Shown here: piece after piece, positions 766 to 64,000 of the stretch
How the letters are laid out: each line of letters begins with the position of its first letter
How positions within the stretch are numbered: the stretch's first letter is position 1
Assembly: GCF_008065135.1 (NCBI RefSeq)
Contig: NZ_CP042914.1
Coordinates: 310,001 to 374,000 of the forward strand
Length of the DNA stretch: 64,000 nucleotides
Reading direction: 5' to 3'
DNA from: Roseimaritima ulvae
GTDB lineage: Bacteria; Planctomycetota; Planctomycetia; Pirellulales; Pirellulaceae
Translations under genes and position numbers: made by a program
Notes under the pieces: generated by a model
Seen by the model: only the letters and a program-made list of their open reading frames with translations
What the model was told of the DNA's origin: nothing
Database searches by the model: none

Positions 766-2331
766 ATGAGTCGAGAGAATTACATTGCCTGGCTGCGTGG
801 TCGAACCGAGCCGTGGGATTTGGTCATCATCGGCGGCGGTGCCACCGGCGTCGGTACCGCTCTGGACGCGGCCAGTCGTGGTCTGGATGTCGTGCTGTTG
901 GAACAATCCGATTTCGGCAAAGGCACCTCCAGCCGCAGCACCAAACTGGTGCATGGCGGCGTACGGTATCTGCAGCAGGGCAACATCACGCTGGTTCGTG
1001 ATGCCTTACGCGAACGGTCGTTGCTGCGCAACAACGCGCCGCACCTGGTTCACGACATGCCGTTTTTGATTCCCTGCCGAAATTTGTGGCAGCGGTTTTT
1101 TTACGGCGTTGGACTGAAGGTTTACGACCTGCTGGCGACCCGTAAGAGTTTCGGAAAGTCGCATGGTGTGTCTGGTGGCCAAGCCGTACGCCAGGTGCCC
1201 ACGATTCGTCGTGAGTTGTTGAGCAGCGGCGTGATCTACCACGATGGTCAGTTCGATGATGCGCGGCTGTTGATCAACATGGCTCAGACCGCTCATGAGC
1301 AAGGTGCCACGCTGTTGAACTATTTCGCCGTGACGGGGCTAACGAAAAACGCGAAAGGTAAAATCTCGGGCGTAGTAGCGGAAGATCGGGAAACCTCTGA
1401 AGCCTTCGAAATCGCGGCCCGTTGTGTGGTCAATGCGGCCGGGCCATTTTGCGATGCCGTGCGCAGGCTGGACGATCAGGATTGTGAACGCATGGTGGCG
1501 GCCAGTCAGGGCGTGCACATCGTTCTGCCGCGGTCGTTTTTTCCCGGTGACACCGCGCTGATTGTGCCCAAAACCTCCGACGGCCGGGTGCTGTTTATGA
1601 TCCCCTGGCATGATCATACGTTGGTGGGCACCACCGATACGTCGATCCCCACCGCGACGCTGGAGCCGACGGCGCAAGAGGATGAAATTCAGTTTCTGCT
1701 GGACACCACGGCCGAGTACTTAAATCAGGCACCCACGCGAGCGGATGTGTTGAGCGTGTTTGTGGGCATTCGTCCGTTGGTCAAAGGCGACAAGTCGGCT
1801 CGCACCGCGTCGTTGTCGCGCGACCATGTGATACGTGCCTCCGATTCGGGGCTGTTGACGATCACCGGCGGCAAGTGGACCACGGTGCGAAAAATGTCCG
1901 AAGACTGTGTCGACCGAGTGATCGAAGCGACAGGCCTGACCGCGCAGCCTTGCCCCACCAAAGAATTGCACCTGCACGGCTATCTGCAGCGACCCGAGGA
2001 TTCGCCGCGAGGTTATTACGGATCGGATCTGGCGGAGTTACAGTTGCTGGAATCCGAGACGCCCGAATTGTCGGTGCCTCTGCACGAGGGGCTCACCTTG
2101 CATGGTTCGGACGTTGTCTGGGCGGTGCGGCAGGAGTCCGCGCGGACGGTGGAAGACGTGCTGGCGCGGCGAGCACGTAGCCTGTTTTTGAACGCACCCG
2201 CAGCCGTTGAGGTGGCGCCCAAAGTGGCCGAATTGATGGCGGCCGAGTTGGGCCAGGACGCGGCGTGGTGCGAAGACCAAGTTTCACAGTTCAACGCGAC
2301 GGCAAAACATTATCTGATTGATCACTCGTAG
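766..2331 (+). CDS. glpD: Aerobic-type glycerol-3-phosphate dehydrogenase (FAD)
   Basis: This enzyme oxidises glycerol 3-phosphate to dihydroxyacetone phosphate and passes electrons to quinone at the membrane. The predicted protein is 521 aa, normal for GlpD. Residues about 20-40 carry the FAD dinucleotide-binding motif IIGGGATGVG, followed by STKLVHGGVRYLQQG, typical of the family. The C-terminal half has the HVIRASDSGLLTITGGKWTT block. I chose the ATG at 766 because AGGAG lies at 755-759 with 6-nt spacing; a TTG at 760 is in frame but badly placed. The TAG stop (2329-2331) lies inside the GTAG head of a hairpin repeat. Confidence 0.96.
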   Translation: MSRENYIAWLRGRTEPWDLVIIGGGATGVGTALDAASRGLDVVLLEQSDFGKGTSSRSTKLVHGGVRYLQQGNITLVRDALRERSLLRNNAPHLVHDMPFLIPCRNLWQRFFYGVGLKVYDLLATRKSFGKSHGVSGGQAVRQVPTIRRELLSSGVIYHDGQFDDARLLINMAQTAHEQGATLLNYFAVTGLTKNAKGKISGVVAEDRETSEAFEIAARCVVNAAGPFCDAVRRLDDQDCERMVAASQGVHIVLPRSFFPGDTALIVPKTSDGRVLFMIPWHDHTLVGTTDTSIPTATLEPTAQEDEIQFLLDTTAEYLNQAPTRADVLSVFVGIRPLVKGDKSARTASLSRDHVIRASDSGLLTITGGKWTTVRKMSEDCVDRVIEATGLTAQPCPTKELHLHGYLQRPEDSPRGYYGSDLAELQLLESETPELSVPLHEGLTLHGSDVVWAVRQESARTVEDVLARRARSLFLNAPAAVEVAPKVAELMAAELGQDAAWCEDQVSQFNATAKHYLIDHS

Positions 2332-2423
2332 CTACCTTCGCCAGAAGGTGGGCCCCGATCCGCTCGTAGCTACCTTCGCCAGAAGGTGGGAGATCGGCTC
2401 CACGCTCTGGCGAGCGTAGCTAC
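2328..2423. repeat. Three REP-like hairpins (CGCCAG-loop family)
   Basis: Two direct copies of GTAGCTACCTTCGCCAGAAG (start 2328 and 2366, each continuing GTGG) are followed by one inverted copy with a different stem (2400-2423; read on the minus strand as GTAGCTACGCT, CGCCAG, AGCGTGG). Each can fold into a short hairpin with a GCCA loop. The cluster fills the gap between glpD and glpF and overlaps the glpD stop codon. It may affect mRNA end formation or stability, but that is inference. Confidence 0.85.
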
Positions 2424-2451
2424 GACGCTACAACTCATCTAGGAATCGAAT

Positions 2452-3198
2452 ATGTCGCCATTTGTTGCTGAGTTTATTGGAACGATGATGCTGGTGCTGT
2501 TTGGCAACGGCGTGGTGGCCAACGTGGTTTTGGCTCGCACCAAGGGCAACGGTTCAGGCTGGATCGTGATCACCGCGGGCTGGGGCATCGCCGTGTTTGT
2601 GGGGGCCTTCTGTGCCGGGGATTTCAGCGGTGCCCATTTGAATCCCGCCGTTACAGCGGCGATGCTGATCGCTGGCAAGTTGCCCTGGTCCGCGGGGGTC
2701 AGCTACTGTGCGGCGCAGATGCTGGGGGCCATTACTGGCGCGGCATTGGTGTTTTTGTTCTATCGCGAACACTTTAAAGCCAGCGACGACGCGGAGGGCA
2801 AGCTGGCGTGTTTTTGTACGTCGCCCAATATTCGCAATCTTCCTCAGGCGTTCTTTTGCGAAGTCGTTGGCACCTTCGCGTTGATCTTGCCCATCTTTTT
2901 GATCGTCACCCCCAGCCTGACGCAAGGCGACGTTCCCGCCGATACCGATCCGACGCTGGGGTTGGGCTCGCTGGGGTACCTCACCGTGGGGCTGCTGGTG
3001 TTTGGGATCGGCCTGTCCCTGGGCGGCACCACCGGGTACGCCATCAACCCGGCACGCGACCTGGGGCCGCGTCTGGTCCACGCTCTGTGGCCGATTCCCG
3101 GCAAACGGGACAGCGACTGGAGGTATGCCTGGGTACCGGTCGTGGGGCCGCTGGTCGGAGGAGCTTTGGCGGCAATCGTCTACAAGCTGATCGCCTAG
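2452..3198 (+). CDS. glpF: Aquaglyceroporin / glycerol facilitator (MIP family)
   Basis: This inner-membrane channel lets glycerol diffuse into the cell. The 248-aa protein is the usual size and is strongly hydrophobic with six predicted membrane spans. Both half-helix signature motifs are present: HLNPAVT near residue 63 and INPARD near residue 199. The aspartate after the second NPAR is the classical mark of glycerol-conducting members, as opposed to water-only channels. The start is supported by AGGAA at 2441-2445, 6 nt before the ATG. Its place downstream of glpK and glpD completes a glycerol uptake and catabolism unit. Confidence 0.93.
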   Translation: MSPFVAEFIGTMMLVLFGNGVVANVVLARTKGNGSGWIVITAGWGIAVFVGAFCAGDFSGAHLNPAVTAAMLIAGKLPWSAGVSYCAAQMLGAITGAALVFLFYREHFKASDDAEGKLACFCTSPNIRNLPQAFFCEVVGTFALILPIFLIVTPSLTQGDVPADTDPTLGLGSLGYLTVGLLVFGIGLSLGGTTGYAINPARDLGPRLVHALWPIPGKRDSDWRYAWVPVVGPLVGGALAAIVYKLIA

Positions 3199-3223
3199 CT
3201 ACAATAGGCACCCAGTGGTAGTG

Positions 3224-3288
3224 GTAGCCGAGCGTCGCCAGACTTTGGAAAGCGGCTCGTGCATCCAATCTCTGGCGAGATCGGCTAC
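3224..3288. repeat. Inverted pair of REP-like hairpins (CGCCAG loop)
   Basis: The left copy begins GTAGCCGAGCGTCGCCAGAC and the right copy, on the opposite strand, reads GTAGCCGATCTCGCCAGAGA. The two GTAG ends point outward, as in a BIME. The pair lies just upstream of the ceramidase-like gene and may overlap its promoter region. Confidence 0.85.
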
Positions 3289-3312: not shown

Positions 3313-4929
3313 ATGAGCACCATGTATCCAACTCGAATCCATCGTGGGGCAGCGAATCAACGCGGTTTTTTCGTAGCTACGCTCGCCAGAGCGTGGGAAA
3401 CCTCAGCCACCCCCCTGCTGGCCTTTGTTCTTGCCGCGACGCTCGCTGGGCAAACCGCGAGGGCCGAAACGCCTCGGCCCGACACCCCCCAACCCGACAC
3501 CCTGATGGCGGGCGTGGCCAAGGTCGACATCACCGATCGCGAGGCCGGACCGGTCAACGATCCGCTGTACGTCAAAGCGATCGTGCTGAAATCGGATACG
3601 GAGACCGCGGTGTTGGTTTCGGTCGACGCGGTGGCGATCGGCGAGATCGGACGGATCTCCAACGACTACCTGCCCACCGTTCGCACGCGGCTGCAGCAGG
3701 AACTGGGCATCGCGCCGGCGAACGTATTGATCAATGCCAGTCATTGTCATGGAGTCGTATGTGCCGACGTCGATGAAAAAACCGTGCAGGCCGTCACGCA
3801 GGCGACGAAAAATATGGTGCCGGTAAAGATCGGTGCGGGGGTCGGTCACGAAGATCGGATCATGGAGAACCGACGACTGAAGTTGAAAAGCGGCAAAGAG
3901 GCCGACGTGCGACACGCGTATTCGCTGCCACCCGATGAAGAGGTGGCCGAGGTGGGGCCGGTGGATCCACAGATCGGCATCCTGCGGCTGGATCGTTTGG
4001 ACGGCCGAACGTTGGCCGTCGTTTACAACTTTGCCTGCCATCCGATTCAAGGGGTGCCCAGTGGCGGCAACACGGCCGACATCATCGGCTTCGCGTCGAA
4101 GGTGATCGAGGAAAACTTAAGCGACGACACGCTGGCTCTGTTTCTGCAAGGCTGCGGCGGCGACATCAACCCAGTGACGTATAAAGCCGTCGAGCACCCT
4201 CGCAGCGCCGAACCGCTGGGCAACCTGTTGGGACTCAGCACCCTCCGTGCGGTGCGCAAGATCGAATGCCAAGCCGACCAGCGGCTGACGGTTCGCTCGG
4301 AAACGCTGGCACTGCCGCGCGGCGACCGGACCGAAAGGATCCACCAGTTGGAAATTGAACAGCAGCGTCTGTTGCAGTCGCTCAAGGGCACCAGTCTGAA
4401 TTTGAAGACGTTTCTGCCGCTGGTTGTGAAATACAATTTGTCCGAGGAGTTTCCTTCGTATTACTCGCACCGTTACCTGCATGACGAGAAGCTGGGCCGC
4501 GACGATCTTCGCAAACTGGATAGTGAAAACCGCCGCAACATGAAGGCTTACATCCAGAACATCCATACCATGGAAGCGCTGACGCGGGTGCAAGCCAATC
4601 TGTCACTGCTGCGAAAACATCAGCGTGCGATGGTGGATTCCGGTAAACGCACGGTGGACGTGGAATTGGCGGCGATGCGGATCGGCGATTTTGTATTAAC
4701 GACTTTTCCTGGTGAATTGACAGTGCAGATCGGCTTGAACATCAAGCAGCAGTCGCCGCATCCGCAAACGTTCGTGGCCGGCTACACCAACGGCTATATC
4801 TACTACGCACCGACAGCGGAGCAGTTGCAGAACGTAGGCGGGGCTCAGGAAGATAGCGATTGCATCTTGGCGCCGCAGTGGCAGTCGATCTACGAAACCA
4901 AAGTGGCCGCGATGTTGGAGAACCTGTGA
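3313..4929 (+). CDS. Exported neutral/alkaline ceramidase-like protein
   Basis: This 538-aa protein belongs to the planctomycete group related to the N-terminal domain of neutral/alkaline non-lysosomal ceramidase, a zinc amidase fold. Features seen are GVAKVDITDRE near the mature N-terminus, a His-rich INASHCHGVV in the place of the ceramidase THTH metal motif, NFACHPIQGV, and FLQGCGGDINPV. A hydrophobic segment ending QTARA looks like a signal peptide, but a ~34-residue tail precedes it, and that tail contains a translated REP copy (3373-3396). Start candidates are ATG 3313, ATG 3322 and a poor GTG at 3259. The symporter gene follows 1 bp after the stop, implying a two-gene operon. The substrate is unknown; many family members are not true ceramidases. 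Confidence 0.75.
   Translation: MSTMYPTRIHRGAANQRGFFVATLARAWETSATPLLAFVLAATLAGQTARAETPRPDTPQPDTLMAGVAKVDITDREAGPVNDPLYVKAIVLKSDTETAVLVSVDAVAIGEIGRISNDYLPTVRTRLQQELGIAPANVLINASHCHGVVCADVDEKTVQAVTQATKNMVPVKIGAGVGHEDRIMENRRLKLKSGKEADVRHAYSLPPDEEVAEVGPVDPQIGILRLDRLDGRTLAVVYNFACHPIQGVPSGGNTADIIGFASKVIEENLSDDTLALFLQGCGGDINPVTYKAVEHPRSAEPLGNLLGLSTLRAVRKIECQADQRLTVRSETLALPRGDRTERIHQLEIEQQRLLQSLKGTSLNLKTFLPLVVKYNLSEEFPSYYSHRYLHDEKLGRDDLRKLDSENRRNMKAYIQNIHTMEALTRVQANLSLLRKHQRAMVDSGKRTVDVELAAMRIGDFVLTTFPGELTVQIGLNIKQQSPHPQTFVAGYTNGYIYYAPTAEQLQNVGGAQEDSDCILAPQWQSIYETKVAAMLENL
3373..3396 (+). repeat. REP-like hairpin inside a coding region
   Basis: GTAGCTACGCTCGCCAGAGC followed by GTGG is the same unit found between genes elsewhere in the window. 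Here it is read in frame as part of the N-terminal extension of the ceramidase-like protein (residues about 21-28). Confidence 0.85.
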
Positions 4930-7057: not shown

Positions 7058-7105
7058 CAGGCTGTGGAATGAATTGTTTAACCGATTGCGCTGCAGCCGA
7101 GCAGC

Positions 7106-7258
7106 GTAGCATGGGCCCCTGGCCCGTGTGTCGAGCGCATCGGCCGATGTAGTGGTTGGAGTCCAGCCTATTCGCAGGTTGTTTGCCGGAACAGGAGACA
7201 CGGCCCGGGGGACCATGCTACGAAGATGCGCGGTACACGGCCCGGGGGACCATGTTAC
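7106..7258. repeat. Three GGGCC-type REP-like repeats
   Basis: One forward copy (7106-7128, GTAGCATGGGCC...GGCCCGTG) and two reverse copies (7199-7221 and 7236-7258) fill the space between the convergent symporter and sulfatase genes. The last copy ends only 1 bp before the sulfatase stop codon. Each can form a hairpin with one G-T pair. The gap contains nothing else I recognise. Confidence 0.85.
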
Positions 7259-7259
7259 G

Positions 7260-8729
7260 TTACGGACGCAGCGTCTGCGGCTGGGGTGTGCTGCCTTCGT
7301 CGATGCGTCCTCGCTGGCGTTGCCCCGCCCCTTTCCGTCCTCGGTCCCCCAAGTCCGCTCGAGCTTGTTCGGCCAGCTTCTGCAATCGCTCGACCACCTG
7401 CGGATGTTGATCCGCCACGTTGTGTTCACAGGCGATGTCGTTGACGACGTTGAACAGCAACAGCGCAGGCGGTTGCTTGGCGTTGAAATGCGGATGCCGC
7501 GCGGCCGTGACCGGCAAGAACAATTTCCAAGGGCCGCTGCGGACCGCTTGCAGTTGATCTTGATGGTAATAATAAAACGCCTCGTAGGGCGACTTGGCAT
7601 CGGCGTCGCCGAACAGCAGCGGAGCAATATTGTGGCCATCGATTTTGTTTTCCGTTTGCAGCTTCCCACCGGCCATGGCGGTAAACGTTGGCAGCAGATC
7701 CATCGTGGTAGCCAGTTCGTCGCAAACCGTTCCGGCGGGGATCTTGCCCGGTTGCCAGACGATCGTGGGTACGCGAAAGGCGCCTTCGCTGGTTGTGTAG
7801 CCGCGGCCGTGGAGCGGTTGGTTGGAGCCGCGGCTGAGGTCGCCGGGACGTCGAGCGATCGGCGCGCCGTTGTCGGAGGTCCAAATCACAAACGTGTTCT
7901 CCGCGATTCCTAATTCCTGCAGCTGATTCAACATCACGCCCATCGACCAGTCCAGCTCTTCGATCGCGTCGCCCCACGGCCCGTTGTTACTTTTGCCCTT
8001 GAACTGTGGGCTGGAGAAAGGCGTCGAGGTGCTGCCCGGCATGGCCTGGGGGAAGTACAGGAAGAAGGGCTCGTCGCGATGCTGGGCAATCCACTGCATA
8101 GCCCGCTCGGTATAACGTTTGGTTAAACCGTCGCGGTCGCAGGGAGCTTCGATGACGGTTTCGTTTTCCATCAATGGCAGCGGCGGCCACTTCGACCCAT
8201 CGGTCCACACCCGAGCGGTCATGTCGTCGGAGTACGGCACGCCAAAGAACCAATCAAACCCCTGCCGCGTGGGCAGGAATTGTGGTTGGTCGCCGAGGTG
8301 CCATTTGCCCACGATGGCCGTTGCATAGCCTTGCTGCTTTAAAGCTTCGGCGATCGTATGTTCGTCGGGGTGCAGACCGTAGGGAGATAGCGGACGCAGC
8401 ACCAGGCCATCGCGAGGGTTGGTGTGCATGCCCACGCGTTGCGAATAACAACCCGTCATGATGCTGGCTCGTGAGGGCGTGCAGACGCCGGCCGTGACGC
8501 AGAAATGCGTGAACTTGCGACCTTCTTTGGCCATCCGGTTCAGATTGGGCGTGCGGTGCAACGTCGAGCCAAACGGTTCGATGTCGCCGTAGCCCAGGTT
8601 GTCGCAGAACACGATGATGAAGTTCGGCGGGCGTTGGTCAGCGGCCGGAATTTGGTCGGCGGCATGTAGTTCAGGTGCGACCAGGGGAACCACGGCGAAT
8701 AGACAAAGGCGGCATAGGTGGCGGATCAT
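7260..8729 (-). CDS. Secreted arylsulfatase-type sulfatase
   Basis: This enzyme hydrolyses sulfate esters. The mature part begins NFIIVFCDNLGYGDIEPFG, giving metal ligands near the start, and contains the formylglycine signature GVCTPSRASIMTG, whose Cys must be converted by a sulfatase-modifying enzyme. NAFVIWTSDNGAP-type residues (seen as VIWTSDNGAPIARR) form a second metal site. I chose ATG 8729, which gives 489 aa starting MIRHLCRLCLFAVVPLV, a clear signal peptide; the longer reading from 8864 adds an unconvincing tail. The substrate is not predictable, but planctomycete sulfatases commonly act on sulfated algal polysaccharides. Confidence 0.92.
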   Translation of the reverse strand: MIRHLCRLCLFAVVPLVAPELHAADQIPAADQRPPNFIIVFCDNLGYGDIEPFGSTLHRTPNLNRMAKEGRKFTHFCVTAGVCTPSRASIMTGCYSQRVGMHTNPRDGLVLRPLSPYGLHPDEHTIAEALKQQGYATAIVGKWHLGDQPQFLPTRQGFDWFFGVPYSDDMTARVWTDGSKWPPLPLMENETVIEAPCDRDGLTKRYTERAMQWIAQHRDEPFFLYFPQAMPGSTSTPFSSPQFKGKSNNGPWGDAIEELDWSMGVMLNQLQELGIAENTFVIWTSDNGAPIARRPGDLSRGSNQPLHGRGYTTSEGAFRVPTIVWQPGKIPAGTVCDELATTMDLLPTFTAMAGGKLQTENKIDGHNIAPLLFGDADAKSPYEAFYYYHQDQLQAVRSGPWKLFLPVTAARHPHFNAKQPPALLLFNVVNDIACEHNVADQHPQVVERLQKLAEQARADLGDRGRKGAGQRQRGRIDEGSTPQPQTLRP

Positions 8730-8825
8730 AAGTAAAGATTCACGAGGGGGGCGTTGGTGAGTGAGGTCAAAGGCATTCGTTCCGGGGCTGCCGTCACAAA
8801 TTTCGGAGTCGCGGGCGGCTTTTTG

Positions 8826-8887
8826 TAGCATGGGGAAAAGGCCCGTGTACTCTGCTGCCGACACACGGGCCAGGGGCCCATGCTACG
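8826..8887. repeat. Inverted pair of GGGCC-type REP-like repeats
   Basis: A degenerate left copy (GTAGCATGGGGAAAAGGCCC) faces an intact right copy ending GGGGCCCATGCTAC. The pair separates the sulfatase from the next gene upstream on the same strand. Confidence 0.8.
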
Positions 8888-50218: not shown

Positions 50219-50246
50219 ATTAGTACTGCCCGGCGCGACAACAAGT

Positions 50247-54792: not shown

Positions 54793-54793
54793 G

Positions 54794-55010
54794 TTGCGTT
54801 CGCGGAGCGAACGACGACCATTACGTTGCGTTCGCGGAGGACGTGAAACGTATTATTGACGGATTTACTTCACTCTCCCTCTGGGAGAGTCGAGCGTCAG
54901 CGAGGAGAGGGTTTTTCGGCTGCGGAAAATGGCTCTAACAACCTGCAAGTCCAACGCACCCTCCCCGCTCGTTCCTCGCGACCCTCCCAGAGGGAGGGTG
55001 AAATGCTACT
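54794..55010. repeat. Repeat block: CGTTCGC-GGA-GCGAACG units and CCCTCCC units
   Basis: One full and one partial GCGTTCGCGGAGCGAACGAC unit (54797-54840) are followed by two opposed CCCTCCC/GGGAGGG units, 54870-54912 and about 54958-55003. The ~320-bp gap between the SelA-like gene and the DUF1499 gene is thus almost entirely repeats; the two genes converge here. No gene is visible. Confidence 0.8.
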
Positions 55011-55046
55011 AAGGCAGGCACCTCCTGCGGCTAAGGGTTAAACGAT

Positions 55047-55532: not shown

Positions 55533-55544
55533 GTGGATGGGTCC

Positions 55545-56858
55545 ATGAGTCTGTTTGCGCAGTCGGAAGCCGAAAACTTACGCGGGGCGATGCCTCTGGC
55601 CGCTCGTATGCGCCCGCAACGACTGGACGATTTGGTCGGCCAGCAACACATTCTAGGGCCCGGTAAACTTTTGCGGCGCATGATCGATGCCGGGCGACTG
55701 GGGTCGATCATCCTGTTTGGACCTCCGGGAACCGGAAAAACCACGGTCGCCAATTTGCTGGCCAGCGAAACCGCGGGAGCCTTTCGTGAGCTTAGCGCGG
55801 TGACCAGCGGCGTCAAGGATGTCCGCGAAGTCATGCAGTGGGCCCGCGATTGTGTGGCGGCCGGGGACGCTCGACCGATTTTGTTTATCGACGAAATTCA
55901 CCGCTTCTCCAAGTCGCAGCAGGACGTGCTGTTGCCGGATGTGGAAGCTGGGATCGTGACGTTGGTCGGCGCCACCACGGCCAACCCCTTCTTCTCCGTC
56001 AACGCGGCGCTGCTCAGTCGCAGTCAGTTGTTCCAGTTGGAATCGTTGACCAGCGAAGAAATCTCGCAGCTTCTGCGGCGTGCGATCGCCGACAGCAAAA
56101 ACGGCTTGGGGTATCTGAAAATCAAGGCCGACGACGAGGCCATCGAGTTTCTGTCGAAAGTCTGCGAAGGCGACGCTCGCCGGGCACTGACGGCCCTGGA
56201 AATCGCCGTGCTGAGCGATCGCGGAGAGGGCACGATCCATTTGACTGAATCGCTGGTCCGCGAATCGGTGCAACAAAAGCAAGTTGGCTATGACGGCACC
56301 GGCGACGATCACTACGACGTCGCCAGTGCGCTGATCAAAAGCATCCGTGGCAGCGATGTGGACGCGGCCATGTACTGGCTGGCGCGGATGCTCGAAGGCG
56401 GCGAAGACATTCGTTTTATCTGTCGGCGGCTGGTGATCTTGGCCAGCGAAGACATCGGCAACGCCGACCCACAAGCGTTGTCGTTGGCCGTCGCCGCCAT
56501 GCAGGCTTGCGAATTCGTGGGGTTGCCCGAATGCCAATTAACGCTCAGTCAATGTGTGGCCTATCTGGCGTGTGCGCCGAAAAGCAACGCCGCCACGACA
56601 GCTATCGGAGCCGCTCGCAAAGACGTTCGCGAGGGGCAAATCTTGCCCGTGCCAATGCATCTTCGCGACGGTCACTACAAGGGAGCCGAAAAGTTGGGGC
56701 ACGGCGACGGCTATCAGTATTCGCACAACGAAGCCGACGGGATCGCCGCACAGGATTACCTGGGCGTCGATCGCGTGTATTACGAACCCACCGATCGAGG
56801 TTTCGAAGCCGATCTGCAGAACCGACTAAAAACCATCCGCCAACGCTTAAAGGGTTGA
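55545..56858 (+). CDS. rarA: Replication-associated recombination protein A (AAA+ ATPase)
   Basis: RarA/MgsA acts at stalled replication forks. The 437-aa product has the AAA+ motifs: Walker A LFGPPGTGKTTVANLLA near residue 60, Walker B ILFIDEIHRFSKSQQDVLLP near 115, sensor 1 VTLVGATTANPFFSVNAALL, and the GDARRALTALEIAV sensor 2 region. The C-terminal tetramerisation part contains RDGHYKGAEKLGHGDGYQYS and ends in the RarA-typical DYLGVDRVYYEPTDRGFE. I chose ATG 55545; GTG 55533 and TTG 55521 are in frame. Confidence 0.95.
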   Translation: MSLFAQSEAENLRGAMPLAARMRPQRLDDLVGQQHILGPGKLLRRMIDAGRLGSIILFGPPGTGKTTVANLLASETAGAFRELSAVTSGVKDVREVMQWARDCVAAGDARPILFIDEIHRFSKSQQDVLLPDVEAGIVTLVGATTANPFFSVNAALLSRSQLFQLESLTSEEISQLLRRAIADSKNGLGYLKIKADDEAIEFLSKVCEGDARRALTALEIAVLSDRGEGTIHLTESLVRESVQQKQVGYDGTGDDHYDVASALIKSIRGSDVDAAMYWLARMLEGGEDIRFICRRLVILASEDIGNADPQALSLAVAAMQACEFVGLPECQLTLSQCVAYLACAPKSNAATTAIGAARKDVREGQILPVPMHLRDGHYKGAEKLGHGDGYQYSHNEADGIAAQDYLGVDRVYYEPTDRGFEADLQNRLKTIRQRLKG

Positions 56859-56865
56859 TGGTCCA

Positions 56866-56999
56866 AGGTCGTTGTTCGCTCCGCGAACATAACGAAACCA
56901 TACAGTCGTAGCGTTCGCGGAGCGAACGACGACCATACGTTGCGTTCGCGGAGCGAACGACGACCTTGCGTTGCGTTCGCGGAGCGAACGACGACCATG
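56866..56999. repeat. Four CGTTCGC-GGA-GCGAACG hairpin units
   Basis: One reverse unit (GGTCGTTGTTCGCTCCGCGAAC, 56866-56887) is followed by three direct units near 56908, 56940 and 56973, each GCGTTCGCGGAGCGAACGAC then GACC. The first direct unit is headed by GTAG. The block separates rarA from the pyrophosphorylase gene and lies upstream of the latter's start. Confidence 0.87.
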
Positions 57000-57070
57000 T
57001 GTTTTGCTTGGGTTGCCGATCGGCTAACTTGTTATTGGGTTTCTTGTTCCTCCGACTCCAATTGAGCTTC

Positions 57071-58483
57071 ATGTCTTCTTCGCAAACTATTGATATCGAT
57101 TCGCTGCGAACTCGCTTGGCTCGTTACGAGCAGTCGCATCTGTTGCAGTTCTGGGATCATTTGTCGGCGACCGAGCAGCAGCGTTTGCACGACCAATTAA
57201 CGGCCATCGACTTTGACCAGCTGGCCACGTTGGTGGCGGGCAAAGCGGACGAGATTGATTTTGCCGCTTTGGCCGCTCGCAGCACCACGCCGCCGGCCGT
57301 TAACGCCAACGGGTCGGGAGCCGCTTGGACGCAGGCCGAAGCCGAAGAAAAAGGACGCCAAGCACTGGCGGCGGGCCAGGTCGGCGCGGTAATCGTGGCC
57401 GGCGGTCAGGGCACGCGATTGGGGTTTGATAAACCCAAGGGAATGTTTCCGATCGGGCCCTTGTCCGAACGCACGCTGTTCCAGATCTTTGCCGACCGGC
57501 TGTTGGCGATCGGCGACGCGTTTGGCGTTTCGATTCCGCTGTACCTGATGACCAGTCCGGCGACGCACGAAGAAACGGTCGCCTACTGGGAAGAAAATCA
57601 CTGGTTGGGTATGTCTCCCGATGACGTGCACGTGTTCTGCCAAGGCACGATGCCGGCGGTGGATCAGCGCTCGGGCAAGGTGCTGCTGGCCGACAAGGGC
57701 GAAGTCGCACTCAGCCCCGACGGCCACGGCGGCACGGTTGCGGCGCTGAAGAATTCGGGCTGTCTTGAGGACGCTCGCCGCCGCGGGATCCGTTACCTGT
57801 CCTACGGGCAGGTCGATAACCCGTTGGTGTACCTGTGCGATCCCGGTCTGATCGGGCACCACATCGCGGCCGACAGTGAAATGACCACGCAGGTCGTCCG
57901 CAAACGTTATCCCACCGAAAAGGTGGGTAACGTGGTGCTGGCCGATGACCAAGTGCAGATTATCGAATACAGCGACCTGCCCGAGCAGGCGGCTCATCAG
58001 ACCGACGAATCCGGCGAATTGAAGTTGTGGGCGGGCAGCATCGCGGTGCATGTGTGCGATGTCGATTTCCTGGAACGAATGAGCTCCCAGGCCGATGCCC
58101 TGCCCTTCCATCGCGCCAATAAAAAGGTGCCGTACGTCGACGAGCATGGTGACGAGGTTTCGCCATCGGAACCCAATGCGATCAAGTTCGAACGCTTTAT
58201 CTTCGACTTGCTGCCGGCGGCCAAGAACGCGTTTGTGGTCGAAGGCCGACCGGAAGAGATTTTTGCACCGGTGAAAAACGCTGATGGAGCTCCGGCCGAT
58301 ACGCCCGAACTGGCTCGGCAAGCCATCGTCGACCAGGCTCGCCGCCGTTTGCAAGAGGCCGGCGTGGAAGTGGCCGAAGGCGTGCAGGTGGAAATCAATC
58401 CCCGCTTCGCCGTCGACGTCGGCACGCTGCGAGCCAAGCTGGCCGGCCAGCCAAAGATCGATCGCGATACCTACCTGCAGTAG
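57071..58483 (+). CDS. UDP-sugar pyrophosphorylase (UAP1/UDPGP family)
   Basis: The 470-aa cytoplasmic enzyme belongs to the UDPGP family of eukaryote-like UTP:sugar-1-phosphate uridylyltransferases. Key blocks are VIVAGGQGTRLGFDKPKGMF near residue 110 (nucleotide binding, Lys at the phosphate), LYLMTSPATHEETVAYWEEN, GTMPAVDQRSGKVLLADKGE, and NPLVYLCDPGLIGHHIAADS. The pattern is closer to UDP-N-acetylglucosamine pyrophosphorylase (UAP1) than to bacterial GalU, but substrate choice between GlcNAc-1-P, Glc-1-P and others cannot be settled. The start at ATG 57071 avoids reading through the repeat block. Confidence 0.9.
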   Translation: MSSSQTIDIDSLRTRLARYEQSHLLQFWDHLSATEQQRLHDQLTAIDFDQLATLVAGKADEIDFAALAARSTTPPAVNANGSGAAWTQAEAEEKGRQALAAGQVGAVIVAGGQGTRLGFDKPKGMFPIGPLSERTLFQIFADRLLAIGDAFGVSIPLYLMTSPATHEETVAYWEENHWLGMSPDDVHVFCQGTMPAVDQRSGKVLLADKGEVALSPDGHGGTVAALKNSGCLEDARRRGIRYLSYGQVDNPLVYLCDPGLIGHHIAADSEMTTQVVRKRYPTEKVGNVVLADDQVQIIEYSDLPEQAAHQTDESGELKLWAGSIAVHVCDVDFLERMSSQADALPFHRANKKVPYVDEHGDEVSPSEPNAIKFERFIFDLLPAAKNAFVVEGRPEEIFAPVKNADGAPADTPELARQAIVDQARRRLQEAGVEVAEGVQVEINPRFAVDVGTLRAKLAGQPKIDRDTYLQ

Positions 58484-58497
58484 CGGAGACATCACCC

Positions 58498-58563
58498 GTA
58501 GCCGAACTCGCCAGAGTTTGGAGGCTTGGGGGTGCCGGTCCAATCTCTGGCGAGATCGGCTAC
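58498..58563. repeat. Inverted pair of REP-like hairpins (CGCCAG loop)
   Basis: The left copy GTAGCCGAACTCGCCAGAGT and TTGGA and the right copy, reversed, GTAGCCGATCTCGCCAGAGA and TTGGA are both intact but have different, fully paired stems. The pair lies between two convergent genes. Confidence 0.87.
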
Positions 58564-58581
58564 GAAGAAATTTGAAGTACG

Positions 58582-59118
58582 CTAGGACTGGGCGACCATT
58601 TTGATGATCTGGCGGCAGAAGGCCGGCAGGTCGTCCGGGCGGCGGCTGCAGATAAAATGGCGATCCACCACCACTTCGGCGTCTTCGTAAATCGCTCCGG
58701 CGTTGACCAGGTCGTCTTTGATGCCGGGCGAGCCGGTGACGCGAACGCCGCGGTAGACGCCGGCGGAGATCGGGATCCAGCCGCCGTGGCAGACCGCCGC
58801 GATGCACTTGCCGGCGGCGGCAAAGTCGCGGACCAGCTGCAGCACCTGGGCGTCTCGCCGCAGTTTGTCGGGCATGAAACCACCCGGCACGATCAAGCCG
58901 TCGAAATCGGCTTCGCGCATGTCCGCCAGGGCGGCCTCGCTGCGGCAGGGGTAGCCGTGTTTGCCCGCGTACGTCTGCTCTGCTTCCGGGCCCGCCATGA
59001 CCACGCTGCCCCCGGCTTCTTCCAGCCGCAGCTTGGGATACCAGACCTCCAGATCCTCGTAGATTTCGCCGACGAACATTAAAAATCGTTTATTGGCCAG
59101 GGGCTGCTGTTCTAGCAT
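58582..59118 (-). CDS. DJ-1/PfpI family protein
   Basis: The 178-aa protein has the type I glutamine-amidotransferase-like fold. The start RFLMFVGEIYEDLEVWYP carries the Glu of the active site, FDGLIVPGGFMPDKLRRD precedes the nucleophile elbow, and CIAAVCHGGWIPISAG (about residues 100-115) holds the catalytic Cys-His pair. Members include intracellular proteases, deglycases and hydratases; the exact reaction is open. It is divergent from dapL, 72 bp apart. Confidence 0.92.
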   Translation of the reverse strand: MLEQQPLANKRFLMFVGEIYEDLEVWYPKLRLEEAGGSVVMAGPEAEQTYAGKHGYPCRSEAALADMREADFDGLIVPGGFMPDKLRRDAQVLQLVRDFAAAGKCIAAVCHGGWIPISAGVYRGVRVTGSPGIKDDLVNAGAIYEDAEVVVDRHFICSRRPDDLPAFCRQIIKMVAQS

Positions 59119-59190
59119 CGGGGCTCTCTGTTAGGCTGACGGGCTCGTATTTGGAAACTTTGTTGTAACCTTTGTCAGCCTATTCGAATC

Positions 59191-60453
59191 ATGTCCACGA
59201 CTGAACAGCCCACCAGCGAAACCGCTGATCCCTATTTCCAGCAACTGTTTGCCGATCGCATCGGCGGTGCCAATTACGGTAAAGGCACGGCGATCTACAA
59301 ATTTGAAAAGATCAAACGCGCCAAACGCAAGGCTCTGGCCGACCATCCGCAGCGTGAATTGCTGGACTTCGGCATCGGCGAAAACGACTCCATGGCCGCC
59401 CCCCAAGTCCGTAAGACGATGGAAGCGGAAGTCAACAAACCCGAAAACCGCGGCTACGCCGACAATGGTGTGGCGGAATACAAAGCCGCCGCAGCGCGCT
59501 TCATGCAACGCCAGTTTGGCGTCCAGCTGGACCCCGAAACCCAGATCAACCACTGCATCGGCAGCAAGCCGGCTTACGCCATGCTGCCGGCCTGTTTCAT
59601 CAATCCCGGCGACATCACGATGATGACCGTGCCCGGCTACCCGGTCGCCGGCACGCATACGCAGTACTACGGCGGCGAAGTTTTCAAATTGCCGCTGCTG
59701 GCCGAAAACGGTTTTCTGCCCGATTTGGACAAGGTCCCCGACGACATCTACCGCCGCACCAAGATGCTGGTGTTGAACTATCCCAACAGCCCCACCGGCC
59801 GCACGGCGCCGGCGGAGTTCTTTGAGAAAGTCGTGGCGCTGGCCAAAGAGAAACAGTTTATCGTCGTCCACGACGCGGCCCATATCATGCTGACCTTTGA
59901 TGGCCAGCCACGCAGCTTTCTGCAGACGCCCGGTGCCATGGACGTGGGCGTCGAAGTCCACTCGATGAGCAAGGGCTACGACATGATCGGCTGGCGAATG
60001 GGCTGGGTCTGCGGGCACCCGCAAATCGTCCGCGCCTTTGCCGACGTCAAGGACAACAGCGACAGTGGTCAGTTCATCGCCACGCAAATCGCCGCCGCCG
60101 CGGCCTTGGACGATGATTCCATCCCGGCCGCGATCAACGCCAAGTACCGTCGCCGTGCGGAAAAGCTGGTCGCCGTGCTGAAAGACTGTGGCTTCCAATG
60201 TGAAATGCCCGGCGGCACGTATTTCATCTACACCGCCGCCCCCAAGGGCACCGTCGACGGTGTGGAATTCCCGGCAGCCGAAGACGCCACGCGGCACTTG
60301 ATCGAACAGCACGGCATCGTGACCGTGCCCTGGGACGATGCGGGCCCGTTCCTGCGGTTTAGCGTCACCTATGTGGCCGCCGATGAAGCCGCCGAAGACG
60401 CTTTGATGGAAGAAACCCGCCAGCGGTTGTCGGCCGCCAAACTGCGGTTCTAA
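59191..60453 (+). CDS. dapL: LL-diaminopimelate aminotransferase
   Basis: DapL converts tetrahydrodipicolinate directly to LL-diaminopimelate, the short route to lysine and peptidoglycan precursors. The 420-aa product has ADRIGGANYGKGTAIYKFEK near the start, LLDFGIGENDSMAAP, MLVLNYPNSPTGRTAP, FIVVHDAAHIMLTFDG (PLP Asp), and EVHSMSKGYDMIGWRMGWVC, whose Lys binds PLP (about residue 260). The DapL pathway is usual for planctomycetes, which fits. The wording of substrate specificity within class I/II aminotransferases carries slight uncertainty. Confidence 0.88.
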   Translation: MSTTEQPTSETADPYFQQLFADRIGGANYGKGTAIYKFEKIKRAKRKALADHPQRELLDFGIGENDSMAAPQVRKTMEAEVNKPENRGYADNGVAEYKAAAARFMQRQFGVQLDPETQINHCIGSKPAYAMLPACFINPGDITMMTVPGYPVAGTHTQYYGGEVFKLPLLAENGFLPDLDKVPDDIYRRTKMLVLNYPNSPTGRTAPAEFFEKVVALAKEKQFIVVHDAAHIMLTFDGQPRSFLQTPGAMDVGVEVHSMSKGYDMIGWRMGWVCGHPQIVRAFADVKDNSDSGQFIATQIAAAAALDDDSIPAAINAKYRRRAEKLVAVLKDCGFQCEMPGGTYFIYTAAPKGTVDGVEFPAAEDATRHLIEQHGIVTVPWDDAGPFLRFSVTYVAADEAAEDALMEETRQRLSAAKLRF

Positions 60454-60460
60454 GGACGCT

Positions 60461-60718
60461 AGGGAGCGTTCTCAAATAAGTCACCGAATCAAATTGTAGC
60501 GGCAGGGCGCAAGCCCTCCGGTTTTACGGCACCGGACGGCTTGCGCCGTTCCGCTAGTTTGCGGCACCGGACGGCTTGCGCCGTTCTAGGGAGCGTTCTC
60601 AAATAAGTCACCGAATCGAATTGTAGCGGCAGGGCGCAAGCCCTCCGGTTTTGCGGCACCGAACGGCTTGCGCCGTTCCGCTAGTTTGCGGCACCGGACG
60701 GCTTGCGCCGTTCCGCTA
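60461..60718. repeat. Tandem duplication of a 127-bp repeat-bearing segment
   Basis: AGGGAGCGTTCTCAAATAAG starts at 60461 and again at 60588, and the two segments match over their whole length apart from a few bases. Each contains GTAGCGGCAGGGCGCAAGCC and CTCC (hairpin with GCAA loop) and two copies of GGCACCGGACGGCTTGCGCC. The ~310-bp gap between dapL and the DUF6807 gene, which converge, holds nothing else I recognise. Confidence 0.88.
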
Positions 60719-60761
60719 AGGCGGTAACTGAGCTGGTACTCGGTATGTCAGCCTGGAAAGG

Positions 60762-61754
60762 CTACTTGCCTTTGGCGTAGGCTTGCCAGTGTTTGTCGAT
60801 GTCTTCGACATCCGGCGGGCCGTCGTGGACCAGGTATCGATATCGCGCCTGATAGGGGTTGTCGGGCGTGATCTCAAAACCTTCTTGCACCATCGGCGCA
60901 AAACAAAAATACGGCATCGTGGGGTGCAGCCGTACCGCTTGCGGCGCCCGCAGATTACTGGGATGGCTGAGCATCGCGATGCCGACGGTCTGGCCGTCGA
61001 CCGAGCCGTACATATCAACCCAACGAGCCGTGGTGTGGTTGCCATCGTCACGGTCGTGCCCTTCGCTGGTCAGAAACTGACAGCCGATCGCGTCCGTTTT
61101 AAACCACTGGTTGTGGCCTCGCAACGCCATCCCACCATAGTGGTATTTCAACAGCCGAAGCGGTTTGTCTGAAACGCAGCGCTGCTGCACGGCGATGTCG
61201 AACACGTGGTACGGCCCGGTCCGCGGGTGAACATGCACCGTCCAGGTTTCCAACAACACCGAAACCGGATCGTCGCCTTGCGTGAGGTCTTGATAGATGT
61301 GTTCGACGACAAACTGCGCGCCGCGATCGTCGTTGGTGGTCGAAACAACTCGCTTGTGCACGACGCGGCCGGTGCCTTTGTGGAGGTTCCAGAAATCGAC
61401 CGCATGGCCATCAAATTCGGTCTTCACCCAAGCACCGAACAGAGCGTGTTGATGGGCGTGGTCGGGCGAGAAGTCGCCGGTGACGATAGTCCCTGCAGGC
61501 GTGCGGACGGGGTGGATGTAGCCGCTCCGCCGATAGATCGCATCGAGCTCCGGTGGCGCGGGAACCGTGGCCGTGTGGTAACGCAATGCTTCGACCTCGC
61601 CGGTGCGAACCACCAACGCCCCCTGCTGCGGTTCCACGCGACTGGGTTGTGGAGGGCCGGAGGATGGGGCGGGTTGTTGAGCGGTGAGTGTCGTGGCGAC
61701 CAGCAGGCCGGATGCCAGCGCAAAGGGGAGAGGGATGAGCCAGGAGGAACGCAT
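60762..61754 (-). CDS. Exported DUF6807 (PmoA-like) family protein
   Basis: The 330-aa protein has a signal peptide (LIPLPFALASGLLVATTLTA). The mature part includes YRRSGYIHPVRTPAGTIVTG, DFSPDHAHQHALFGAWVKTE (HxHQHxxF-type motif) and HYGGMALRGHNQWF, which match the planctomycete family annotated as PmoA-like / DUF6807. The C-terminus RYRYLVHDGPPDVEDIDKHW is also typical. Despite the name there is no sign of methane oxidation: no partner subunits and no membrane helices beyond the signal. GGAG precedes the ATG by 5 nt. Confidence 0.8.
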   Translation of the reverse strand: MRSSWLIPLPFALASGLLVATTLTAQQPAPSSGPPQPSRVEPQQGALVVRTGEVEALRYHTATVPAPPELDAIYRRSGYIHPVRTPAGTIVTGDFSPDHAHQHALFGAWVKTEFDGHAVDFWNLHKGTGRVVHKRVVSTTNDDRGAQFVVEHIYQDLTQGDDPVSVLLETWTVHVHPRTGPYHVFDIAVQQRCVSDKPLRLLKYHYGGMALRGHNQWFKTDAIGCQFLTSEGHDRDDGNHTTARWVDMYGSVDGQTVGIAMLSHPSNLRAPQAVRLHPTMPYFCFAPMVQEGFEITPDNPYQARYRYLVHDGPPDVEDIDKHWQAYAKGK

Positions 61755-61861
61755 GAGGACTCCAAAGCGGGAATTGGTAGAAGGGCTAGGCCGAGCCTAC
61801 TATCATACAAGCTTCTTCCCCACCCTGACGCTCCTTGATTTACCCACGCGAAGGTCTCTCC

Positions 61862-62599
61862 ATGCGCTCGCTGTTGCTTACCGTCTGTTTGTTATCGGTC
61901 TTGTTGCCGGCCGCCGAAGCACAAGATGCCCCGGCTACCACGGCGGCGGATACCTCTCAGAAGCCCGTCTATGCAGCCTACGAAGCGGCCGCGAGCAAAC
62001 GCTGGGAGTCCGCCATTGCGGCTTTGGAAAAATTGGATCAGCAGCAAACGCATCCCGACGACGCGGTGCTGTTTGTGGGCAGCAGCAGCATCCGCTTGTG
62101 GGACACTTTGGCTGAAGACATGTGGCCCTATGACACGATTCGCCGCGGCTACGGCGGCGCCCGGTATTCGGATCTGGCCGTGTTCGCCAAACGCTTGATC
62201 GAGCCCCACAAGTATCGGGCCTTGGTATTGTTTGTCGCCAACGATGTGACCGGTGGCGACCAGGATCGCACGCCCGAGGAAGTCGCCGAATTGTTGCGGT
62301 ACGTGATCCACGTCTCGCGAGCTCACCAGCCCGACGCGCCGGTGTTTGTGTTGGAGGTCACGCCGACGGCAAGCCGTTGGAAGGTGTGGCCGGAAATTCG
62401 TGAAGTCAACGCGGCGATGCGGGACGTTTGTTTGACCGAACCAAACACCTATCTGGTTCCCACGGCGGAGTATTTTCTGGACGAAGAAAACCAACCGATC
62501 GAAAAACTGTTTCGCAGCGATCGGCTGCATCTGACCCACGACGGCTACAAAATCTGGACGGAAATATTGAAGCGCCGATTTGAAGAAGTGTTGCAGTAG
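61862..62599 (+). CDS. Exported SGNH/GDSL hydrolase
   Basis: The 245-aa protein has a signal peptide (MRSLLLTVCLLSVLLPAAEA). Block I is DAVLFVGSSSIRLWDTLAED (catalytic Ser near residue 82), block III LVLFVANDVTGGDQDRTPEE gives the Asn, and LFRSDRLHLTHDGYKIWTEI near the end gives the Asp and His. It is shorter than the SGNH protein at 17.5 kb and lacks its N-terminal domain. Expected to hydrolyse an ester, probably from a carbohydrate. Start ATG 61862 begins at the signal peptide. Confidence 0.9.
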   Translation: MRSLLLTVCLLSVLLPAAEAQDAPATTAADTSQKPVYAAYEAAASKRWESAIAALEKLDQQQTHPDDAVLFVGSSSIRLWDTLAEDMWPYDTIRRGYGGARYSDLAVFAKRLIEPHKYRALVLFVANDVTGGDQDRTPEEVAELLRYVIHVSRAHQPDAPVFVLEVTPTASRWKVWPEIREVNAAMRDVCLTEPNTYLVPTAEYFLDEENQPIEKLFRSDRLHLTHDGYKIWTEILKRRFEEVLQ

Positions 62600-62609
62600 C
62601 AGAAGCCGC

Positions 62610-62884
62610 GTAGCATGGCCCCCCGGCCCGTGTGGCTATTTCGTAGCATGGGCCCCTGGCCCGTGTGGGCAGCGACGACGCTCCTGCTAACACGGTGGGC
62701 ATGCGCTGGCAAAAAAGATGATTCGACACGACAGCCCACCGGGGAGGACCTGCTTCTGACAGCCGCGCGAGATTGCAAAATGCAAAATGCAAAATGTAAA
62801 ATGTAAAGTTGCAAAGTTGCCGCAGCCGTTATTCCTTTAGTCCTGGGGCTCCTGCTGCTTACACGGGCCGGGGGCCCATGCTAC
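62610..62884. repeat. GGGCC-type REP-like repeats (two forward, one reverse) with low-complexity spacer
   Basis: Forward copies begin at 62610 and 62643; a reverse copy ends at 62884. Between them lies a short direct repetition, TGCAAAATGCAAAATGCAAA (62774-62800), of no evident function. The flanking genes converge here and no gene is visible in the gap. Confidence 0.83.
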
Positions 62885-62897
62885 TGGCTTATGCTGC

Positions 62898-63860
62898 TTA
62901 GTTGGCTTTGGTGAATTGGATGGCTTTGCTGCCGGGCAGTTGCAGGTCGAAGCCTTTGGTGCCGTTCAGGCGGACTGTGCCCTGCAGTTTGGTGCCATCG
63001 TCGCCCGTCAAATTCAACGTTTGACCGCTCAGCGAAAACGTGCCGTTGGAGCGCGTTGTGTTGGCGCCTTTGGCGATCGCCAAAATGAATTTTCCATTGG
63101 CGTCCAGCTTCATCGCGATGGCTTCTTTTTTTCCTCGGTCCGCGGCCCAAGTGCCCAGCAAAGCGGAAACGGTTAGTGAGGACGTGCCCGGTTGAGGTGC
63201 GCTCGGTGCGGTGGTGGGTTGGGTCGCCGCGGTTTTGGTTTTGTTTTTAGTTTGGGTTTTGCTTTTGGCTTTGGACAGGTTCCAGGCCGCTTCGTTGTCG
63301 ACGGCGATGTCGGCCAAGCGTTCGAGTTGGCGTTTGAGGCTGGCCGTGGTGACGCCGCGGTTGCTGATCCGCTGCCGCAGTTCGATGCGTTTGTTCTCGG
63401 CGTCATAAGCAAAGAAGGCGGGCGCAAAGTTGCGGCTGGCGGCCATCAGTTCCAGCAGTTTTTCCGGCGACACGTCGGCTTCGTCGTAGTCGTTGCCCAG
63501 GGCCTTGAGCAGCAGGGCCAGTTCCAGTTGATCGTCGTCGTAGAACACGCTGACGCGAACCGGAATGTTCCACTTGTCGCGACGGATCTTCGTCGCCACC
63601 ACGCGGGTGTTGACCGATTTGGCTTGGAAATCTGCCGCTTCCAGCAGGCTGGTCAAGGCCGAGGCGCCAGTGACCCGCGCTGGGCGAGGGGCGGATGAGG
63701 TGGGCGCGTCGGGGCTGTCGTCGGCTTGGGCGAAGGGCGCGTCAATGGATACGTTGGAGAACAAATCATCGCCGGCTCGAACGGTGCAAAGCGACCCGGC
63801 ATGCAAGATGAAACCGGTGACCAGCATCCATCCCGGTAAACGTGGCAGCGAGATTGTCAT
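62898..63860 (-). CDS. Exported hypothetical protein with Lys/Thr-rich linker
   Basis: I do not recognise the family as a whole. The 320-aa product has a signal segment (LPGWMLVTGFILHAGSLC), an N-terminal alpha/beta domain (about 60-190, with TSLLEAADFQAKSVNTRVVA), a low-complexity Lys/Thr/Pro linker near 200-225 (SKAKSKTQTKNKTKTAAT), and a small C-terminal beta domain (LLGTWAADRGKKEAIAMKLD onward) that looks lipocalin-like, as in proteins that begin GTW. ATG 63860 is preferred over GTG 63869 because AGGTGA lies just upstream. Confidence 0.72.
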   Translation of the reverse strand: MTISLPRLPGWMLVTGFILHAGSLCTVRAGDDLFSNVSIDAPFAQADDSPDAPTSSAPRPARVTGASALTSLLEAADFQAKSVNTRVVATKIRRDKWNIPVRVSVFYDDDQLELALLLKALGNDYDEADVSPEKLLELMAASRNFAPAFFAYDAENKRIELRQRISNRGVTTASLKRQLERLADIAVDNEAAWNLSKAKSKTQTKNKTKTAATQPTTAPSAPQPGTSSLTVSALLGTWAADRGKKEAIAMKLDANGKFILAIAKGANTTRSNGTFSLSGQTLNLTGDDGTKLQGTVRLNGTKGFDLQLPGSKAIQFTKAN

Positions 63861-63973
63861 GGAATTCACCTGGAAAAAACGCGTGCAAGGAACGCCGCAG
63901 CCGGAAGTCGGCGGCGGTGGGTACCTTTACAAGCGTCGTCGTCGAGCAGGTGTTACCAAGAAATTTTAATTCC

Positions 63974-64000
63974 GTAGCCGAAGTCGCCAGACTTTGGAAA
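63974..64000 (+). repeat. REP-like hairpin (CGCCAG loop), cut by window end
   Basis: GTAGCCGAAGTCGCCAGACT and TTGGAAA run to the last base. An inverted partner is probably just outside the window. Confidence 0.8.

Follow-up and report, generated by a model that had tools for sequence, protein, structure and literature searches.

Repetitive extragenic palindromic (REP) sequences of the GTAG type, known from E. coli, Pseudomonas and Stenotrophomonas, are short extragenic stem-loops with a GTAG head that are present in high copy number and occur in inverted pairs. An inverted REP pair that recurs together with its spacer as a unit is called a REPIN, and a Y1 transposase gene flanked by the same REP is called a REPtron. 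That single-stranded DNA takes part in Y1 transposition is established in the cited papers on REPs and Y1 enzymes. The spacers of SBW25 REPINs are described as less conserved than their ends (PMC3116915). Pairs of unlike REPs (heterodimers) are known in several GTAG families, and most REP families are reported to favour them, which the same paper describes as unexplained (PMC3733652). Here, we describe a family of 24-nucleotide (nt) GTAG hairpins, the core hairpins, in a 64,000-nt stretch of Roseimaritima ulvae DNA (contig NZ_CP042914.1, positions 310,001 to 374,000; the window) and in the rest of its genome.

The core family is an ordinary REP/REPIN family in kind; it is unusually abundant, its asymmetry is strict and it is an orphan. 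We consider it likely that it is a REP family present largely as REPINs, which is mobilized in trans and in which selection maintains a compensated difference between the two arms of each unit.

The core hairpin and its compensated stem

Each core hairpin consists of GTAG and an 8-bp stem, closed by a C-G pair, around a GCCA loop. Two classes are distinguished, spelled GTAGC TAC NNT CGCCAG ANN GTGG (class A) and GTAGC CGA NNT CGCCAG ANN TTGG (class B); a single G.T wobble is retained in both, at position 2 of the stem in class A and at position 3 in class B. Six bases therefore lie between GTAGC and CGCCAG, namely TAC or CGA and then a variable triplet whose first two letters vary and whose third is almost always T. 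The first-pass annotation of the window located the hairpins to within 2 nt of the positions given in Table 1, but its literal motif of GTAGC, three bases and CGCCAG (GTAGCNNNCGCCAG) has 0 matches, as three bases were missing from its wording. It also stated that the stems always pair. This holds for nearly all copies, but the window contains damaged ones: the copy at 3224 has an extra base and is mispaired, an inserted A interrupts the loop of the copy at 54722, and two partner hairpins, near 53356 and 54769, are decayed. No T run was seen right after the hairpins in the window units displayed, for which no dedicated terminator scan was made.

The exact pattern, which leaves eight positions free, has 1123 matches (555+568) in the 8,212,515-base genome, and the reversed pattern has 0. 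We also sampled 640 kb of the genome as 32 evenly spaced stretches. The exact copies there number 94, and another 42 have 1 to 3 mismatches; the reversed sequence gives 5. Among the 119 copies with at most 2 mismatches in this sample (one of which belongs to a sister family, CATGGG), the pairs 8-21, 9-20 and 10-19, which the pattern does not prescribe, are Watson-Crick in 112, 112 and 119 copies, respectively; this count involves no fitting to a structure. In the alignment of the window copies (14 copies, 9 distinct rows), pairing is seen in 98.6% of the cells, compared with a shuffled mean of 79.3%. The corresponding values for 134 model matches in 704 kb (44 distinct rows) are 96.0% and 78.0%, in an alignment that was fitted to the model and is therefore biased towards the structure. 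None of 500 shuffles reached the observed pairing in either set, and the same was true of the covariation score; the number of pairs changed on both sides is ordinary in the small window set (111/500 shuffles). A genome-wide covariance search, in which 150 of 8159 candidates were scored, gave at least 176 matches. The proposal that compensated changes maintain the hairpin is thus upheld by pairing in excess of shuffles in both the window and the 704-kb set.

The core hairpins are a GTAG-type REP family. GTAG is carried at the foot of the stem-loop by 120 of the 123 hairpins of core shape in 704 kb, the copies are numerous and mostly extragenic, and stem variation is compensated. An inverted pair with its spacer recurs as a unit, as in REPINs, and the first-pass expectation of GTAG-headed REPs in inverted pairs is borne out by 51 inverted neighbours 24-70 nt apart. 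The family differs from the described GTAG REPs and REPINs in its 8-bp stem with a GCCA loop, in its very strict left/right stem swap and in having no REPtron of its own that could be found in this genome. Core units also form tandem arrays at C1:61780-62234 (period ~97 nt) and C1:6716118-6716511 (~93 nt).

Table 1. Core hairpins and decayed partners in the window (positions counted from its first base).
Feature	Positions	Strand	Remark
Class A, left type (CTT/AAG)	2328-2351	+	Its TAG is the stop of the open reading frame (ORF) 760-2331
Class A, left type (CTT/AAG)	2366-2389	+	Partner is 2400-2423
Class A, right type (GCT/AGC)	2400-2423	-	Partner of 2366-2389
Mispaired, one extra base	3224-3248	+	Left arm of unit 3224-3288
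Class B, right type (TCT/AGA)	3265-3288	-	In unit 3224-3288
Class A, right type (GCT/AGC), single	3373-3396	+	
Class A, right type (GCT/AGC)	17517-17540	-	Ends GTAG, not GTGG; head TAG is the stop of ORF 17537-18706 (-)
Class A, left type (CGT/ACG), single	44436-44459	-	
Class B, left type (AGT/ACT)	45434-45457	+	
Class B, right type (TCT/AGA), two substitutions	45477-45500	-	
Class B, right type (ACT/AGT)	53315-53338	+	
Decayed partner hairpin	53356-53379	-	Loop and 3' arm still recognisable
Class B, left type, one base inserted in loop	54722-54746	+	Its TAG is the stop of ORF 53379-54725
Decayed partner of 54722	54769-54792	-	Model match 20.7 bits, E 0.2
Class B (ACT/AGT)	58498-58521	+	
Class B, right type (TCT/AGA)	58540-58563	-	
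Class B, left type (AGT/ACT)	63974-63997	+	Inverted partner just past the window: genome 374015-374038, - strand

Unlike left and right ends within inverted units

Neighbouring copies were collected at distances of 24-70 nt, with at most 2 mismatches and with the sister family left out, from the evenly spaced stretches (118 copies), from stretches chosen for listed copies (65) and from the window (13). Stem position 10 differs in 49 of the 51 inverted pairs but in only 1 of the 47 same-strand neighbours (Fisher p 3e-24). Only two inverted pairs deviate: the window pair 58498/58540, whose hairpins are unlike at position 9 instead, and one class B hairpin paired with a class A hairpin across a 3-nt spacer. 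A unit has a left end with a stem triplet xGT or xTT and a right end with xCT. The two orientations are about equally frequent (25 C/G and 20 G/C), and no orientation bias was seen between the chromosome halves (13/19 vs 7/5, p 0.33). The stem classes had been read as several REP subfamilies; this is not supported, as the differing stems sit within single units. For the most part, the classes represent opposite ends of a single type of unit.

The spacer keeps its length better than its sequence. It is 13-21 nt long in 38 of the 51 inverted pairs, and 34 of 61 inverted neighbours are 38-43 nt apart from start to start, while the spacer sequences, judged by eye, are mostly unrelated. Four occurrences of one class A/B chimera (a CGT/ACT unit) have spacers that closely resemble each other, suggesting that the whole unit was copied recently.

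The swap between the arms is also present in relatives of R. ulvae. Inverted pairs differ in 5 of 5 cases in the congener G001 (including a pair of AGT and ATT, which would both count as left types), in 13 of 14 cases in genomes G012, G017 and G019 together and in the single case in G022, for which six further listed pairs, 47-54 nt apart, all differ. In the R. ulvae genome itself, another family, GTAGCATGGGCC, behaves otherwise, as its commonest inverted combination (4 of the 11 listed) has identical arms. Two further arrangements were noted. In the genome G331, at C17:32540-32579 and similar places, a self-complementary class A head, GTAGCTAC, is common to two opposite hairpins whose stems are different, and the sample of the R. 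ulvae genome contains three outward pairs 16 nt apart.

We calculated the mean fold of 35 units with DNA parameters. The best fold has -20.6 kcal/mol and is mostly a long hairpin between the two arms that opens where the letters are swapped; two separate hairpins have -10.8 kcal/mol, and the same units with identical arms would have -33.3 kcal/mol. The swap thus takes ~13 kcal/mol from the long fold. Because the ends differ by compensated swaps, each hairpin can fold alone whereas the long arm-to-arm fold is interrupted by mismatches. This weakening would fit the clover fold described as the active form of REPINs (PMC3116915), and it would equally fit the escape from hairpin-cleaving enzymes that is proposed for REP pairs in PMC3733652. 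A core unit is two inverted 24-nt hairpins around a short spacer, one a left and the other a right end; on our reading, the swap would be kept because it weakens the long palindrome.

Several observations speak against this explanation. Despite the swap, two separate hairpins are still not the better fold. In addition, among seven listed inverted pairs of the genome G027 the triplet is the same in four and the position-10 letter in five, and another G027 pair and one G019 pair share this letter too, so that the left/right rule is not universal.

The strongest rival, only a little short of an even case, is that the swap was merely inherited from one ancestral asymmetric unit and is under no present selection. 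In line with common descent, related genera show the same combination of xGT or xTT with xCT, and the E. coli bacterial interspersed mosaic elements (BIMEs), inverted units built from the y, z1 and z2 REP types, also mix different REPs (PMC8266576). However, the rule holds in both class A and class B, with different stems, mostly unrelated spacers and even in the chimeras, and most REP families are reported to prefer heterodimers. The BIMEs also differ from the core units: their REP types are distinguished by length, with a mismatch bulge that is needed for activity according to PMC8266576, whereas the core arms are distinguished by compensated pair swaps.

Heterodimeric REP pairs are already known, and what the core family adds is the strictness of the rule and the exactness of the compensated swap. 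It provides a large natural data set for the question of why REP pairs are so often heterodimers, which can be tested inside one genome by comparing the strictly asymmetric core family with GTAGCATGGGCC and its identical-arm pairs.

Y1 genes and a candidate mover

Searches with the Y1_Tnp and REP_Tyr_transpos models identified 17 distinct Y1 loci in the genome, a gene in two pieces being counted once. A repeat family of its own lies beside nine of them by count and beside a tenth, C1:2509330, as judged by eye; for four of these families, scattered copies also occur in the 640-kb sample. Core hairpins flank none of the 17 loci. The one nearest to a Y1 gene is found ~1.05 kb from C1:232012, and from the copy number alone ~0.4 exact copies are expected within 1.5 kb of any gene.

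We extended the search to relatives, where about 100 Y1 matches were obtained in nine genomes and 30 were fetched as loci. In all, 188 stretches with Y1 loci from all genomes, R. ulvae included, were scanned, some of them being one gene fetched twice. The exact core pattern matched in five of these, none of which is a true flank: L001 and its copy L172 match through the sister family, with stem CCATGGGC, the match of L013 and L051 (one locus) lies ~1 kb away, and that of L206 ~2 kb away. Neither were core hairpins found at the 11 Y1 loci of the genome G123. In the opposite direction, the frames near 67 core copies were compared with the Y1 proteins by BLAST, and no Y1 gene was found, barring one fragment-like frame of 57 amino acids in the genome G026 (L059), which resembles long TIR-type proteins. 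Frames near core copies that resembled REP-associated tyrosine transposases (RAYTs) were rejected as false matches from translated repeats. As far as these searches reach, the core family is an orphan.

Of 60 near genomes, 12 contain the exact core pattern, as do 4 of the 392 genomes in a phylum sample, R. ulvae being included in both counts; G001 has 277 exact copies genome-wide. It is rather unlikely that the cognate transposase has been lost, or has diverged too far to be detected, and that the copies are its young leftovers. REPtrons are indeed reported to be deleted in many E. coli strains (PMC3733652), and G331, a draft of 290 contigs that is 99% complete, keeps 51 core copies with no Y1_Tnp match at E 0.001, which is also a point against mobilization by a Y1 enzyme. 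Nevertheless, many copies are perfect, and the presence of the family in 12 of the 60 near genomes means that the loss would have had to be repeated; in addition, none of the Y1 loci examined in G001 (seven of the eight listed) and in G026 (four of five) carries core hairpins.

We favour the alternative that the core units would be non-autonomous mobile DNA on which a Y1 HUH transposase acts in trans. The leading, though still doubtful, candidate for this enzyme is a small IS200-like family that would correspond to subclass 1.2, a Y1 subclass distinct from the classical RAYTs, because its terminal hairpins share an NTAG + 8 bp + GNNA design. In R. ulvae, the 3' side of the Y1 gene C1:3475529 is flanked by GTAG-CCATGGGC-GCCA-GCCCATGG, which has the core design and the core loop. 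The Y---Q--HH signature, found in 16 of 17 aligned proteins of the C1:3475529 family (C1:3475529 included), marks subclass 1.2 of the Y1 transposases, a group in which the usual terminal structures are said to be generally absent (PMC6006769); judged by this motif, the family fits subclass 1.2. Two of its proteins are labelled IS200/IS605 transposase in NCBIfam.

Among 80 named subclass-1.2-like loci (the best 80 of 581), 22 have one or more NTAG + 8 bp + GNNA hairpins within 1 kb of the gene. Such hairpins number 65 within 1 kb (149,826 bases) and 2 beyond it (268,745 bases), while reversing the stretches (454,041 bases) gives 9. At 13 of these 80 loci the gene is enclosed by two hairpins oriented like those of a REPIN, 77-132 nt upstream and 39-85 nt downstream; the two stems are different in 6 of the 13 pairs and the same in 7. 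A pair in G027 (L208), ~0.7 kb from a subclass-1.2-like gene, has the class-B-like stems AGT and ACT with the loops GCAA and GTGA. A relative of the subclass-1.2-like gene is present in all 10 near genomes with at least 5 core copies and in 29 of the 50 others (p 0.008 among the 60 near genomes, with relatedness not corrected). The hairpins at the subclass-1.2-like genes, often inverted, are mostly free of the G.T wobble and stand either side of a ~450-nt gene, whereas the core units are ~65 nt long and gene-less.

The hairpins beside subclass-1.2-like genes are also recognised by a model of Rfam. Acido-Lenti-1 (RF01687) scored in three of the six loci first tried, and then in 17 of 20 hairpin-bearing loci (of the 22, L314 and L326 being left out) against 3 of 20 taken from the 58 hairpin-less ones. 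Its matches fall on the hairpins themselves, with which the core hairpins share the TAG/GNNA design. The window contains two matches, at 19570-19615 (-) and 19714-19759 (+), which form an inverted pair ~100 nt apart. Acido-Lenti-1 was first listed as a probable RNA of Acidobacteria and Lentisphaerae (PMC2864571), and other literature passages treat it as a non-coding RNA of little-known function or mention it in annotation. These passages do not tie the motif to transposases, and the search went no further; PMC6006769 was the only source found that joins subclass 1.2 with REPs. This "sRNA" (small RNA) may be a transposon end, which, if true, would change annotations in many genomes.

Besides the G331 genome, four results count against the assignment of the core units to this enzyme family. 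Firstly, no core hairpin adjoins any of the 17 Y1 loci of R. ulvae. Secondly, 58 of the best 80 loci, by record title 34 from Bacteroidota and about a dozen from Planctomycetota, have no NTAG + 8 bp + GNNA hairpin within 1 kb. Thirdly, the core hairpins have their wobble at position 2 or 3, as opposed to the mostly perfect stems at subclass-1.2-like genes. Fourthly, the core hairpins of the window remained below the gathering threshold of Acido-Lenti-1. It is possible, albeit improbable, that we are dealing with a distinct REP system of Planctomycetota, Acidobacteria, Verrucomicrobia and others, in which NTAG + 8 bp + GNNA hairpins would be subclass 1.2 ends, the enzyme would amplify a gene-less REPIN in trans to more than a thousand copies and the arms would be asymmetric against the formation of one long hairpin. 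The observations nevertheless point to a partner repeat for the subclass 1.2 Y1 transposases of PMC6006769.

Turnover, genomic context and other repeats

The window region 42780-62600 is collinear with C131:24329-43592 of the congener G001, with 66-83% identity in blocks. On the window side, this stretch contains seven core hairpins (at most 3 mismatches), three GTAGCATGG and four GTTGCGTTCGC repeats. The G001 side contains one inverted core pair (C131:32306 and 32350; span 32306-32373), situated where the window has no core hairpin, and neither GTAGCATGG nor GTTGCGTTCGC repeats. Hence, not one of the core sites in the collinear stretch (seven here, two in G001) is common to both genomes. A point against mobility is that no clean empty site could be reconstructed in the alignments, the intergenic DNA being too diverged.

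Gene context was determined with a home-made codon-based gene caller. It assigned 160 of 186 copies to an intergenic gap, 76 of them between codirectional, 66 between convergent and 18 between divergent genes; another 18 copies fall within a called gene, and 8 stand at the end of a stretch. Gaps of at least 40 bases comprise 59,648 codirectional, 25,039 convergent and 26,352 divergent intergenic bases. Convergent gaps thus hold 66 of the 160 copies but 23% of the intergenic bases, and divergent gaps 18 of the 160 but 24%; the copies favour gene 3' ends. In 15 cases the TAG of the hairpin itself is the stop codon of the gene (offset -3), and 14 of 179 heads close a frame of at least 200 codons in this way, compared with 1 and 2 in the other two frames. 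A preference for resident TAG stops as targets does not follow from this, as in-frame insertion near gene ends gives the same excess. A comparison with G001 was made for one gene, which ends at 54725; its orthologue there has no core hairpin nearby.

The enrichment between convergent genes, together with hairpins that are near-perfect although their spacers are mostly unrelated, would also be expected if the hairpins were kept as functional DNA or RNA sites (for 3'-end protection, attenuation or protein binding) and mobility were secondary. We regard this as quite unlikely, given that the collinear congener stretch shares no site and that the distribution is patchy, with 12/60 near genomes and 4/392 genomes of the phylum sample. 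Less probable still is the interpretation of the first-pass annotation, in which every stem class would be a separate REP subfamily served by a RAYT of its own. Some other REP families of this genome do adjoin a cognate Y1 gene, and repeat-specific REPtrons are reported in species with several GTAG families (PMC3733652), but the stem types pair left and right inside single units, the 17 own Y1 loci have no adjacent core hairpins and the five matches in 188 stretches are explained otherwise. That annotation is therefore partly supported. REPs, compensated stems and RAYT-type genes elsewhere in the genome (the 17 loci) are all present, so that the idea is not refuted as a whole, but subfamilies with a RAYT each are not supported, and the Y1 genes flanked by matching core hairpins that it proposed to look for were not found at any of the 17.

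The window also contains other repeats. A second abundant REP family, GTAGCATGGGCCCCTGGCCCGTG, has 14 copies in the window (at 7105-8887, 26831-26911, 36401-36472, 46203-46371 and 62609-62884) and 40 in 640 kb, and among the own Y1 loci it was found in the C1:232012 stretch only, with two copies. The same Y1 gene is flanked by copies of the REP family GTTGCGTTCGCGGAGCGAAC, which is present in the window at 54790-54821 and 56864-56999. At 50130-50218 there is a perfect 32-nt inverted repeat starting with GTAGGCCGGAACAAGCC, a repeat that also flanks the best REP_Tyr_transpos gene, C1:2526648. Finally, a tandem array of ~170-nt repeats at 16345-17440 has sequence in common with the repeat beside the Y1 gene C1:6434281, whose repeat motif has one copy in the window.

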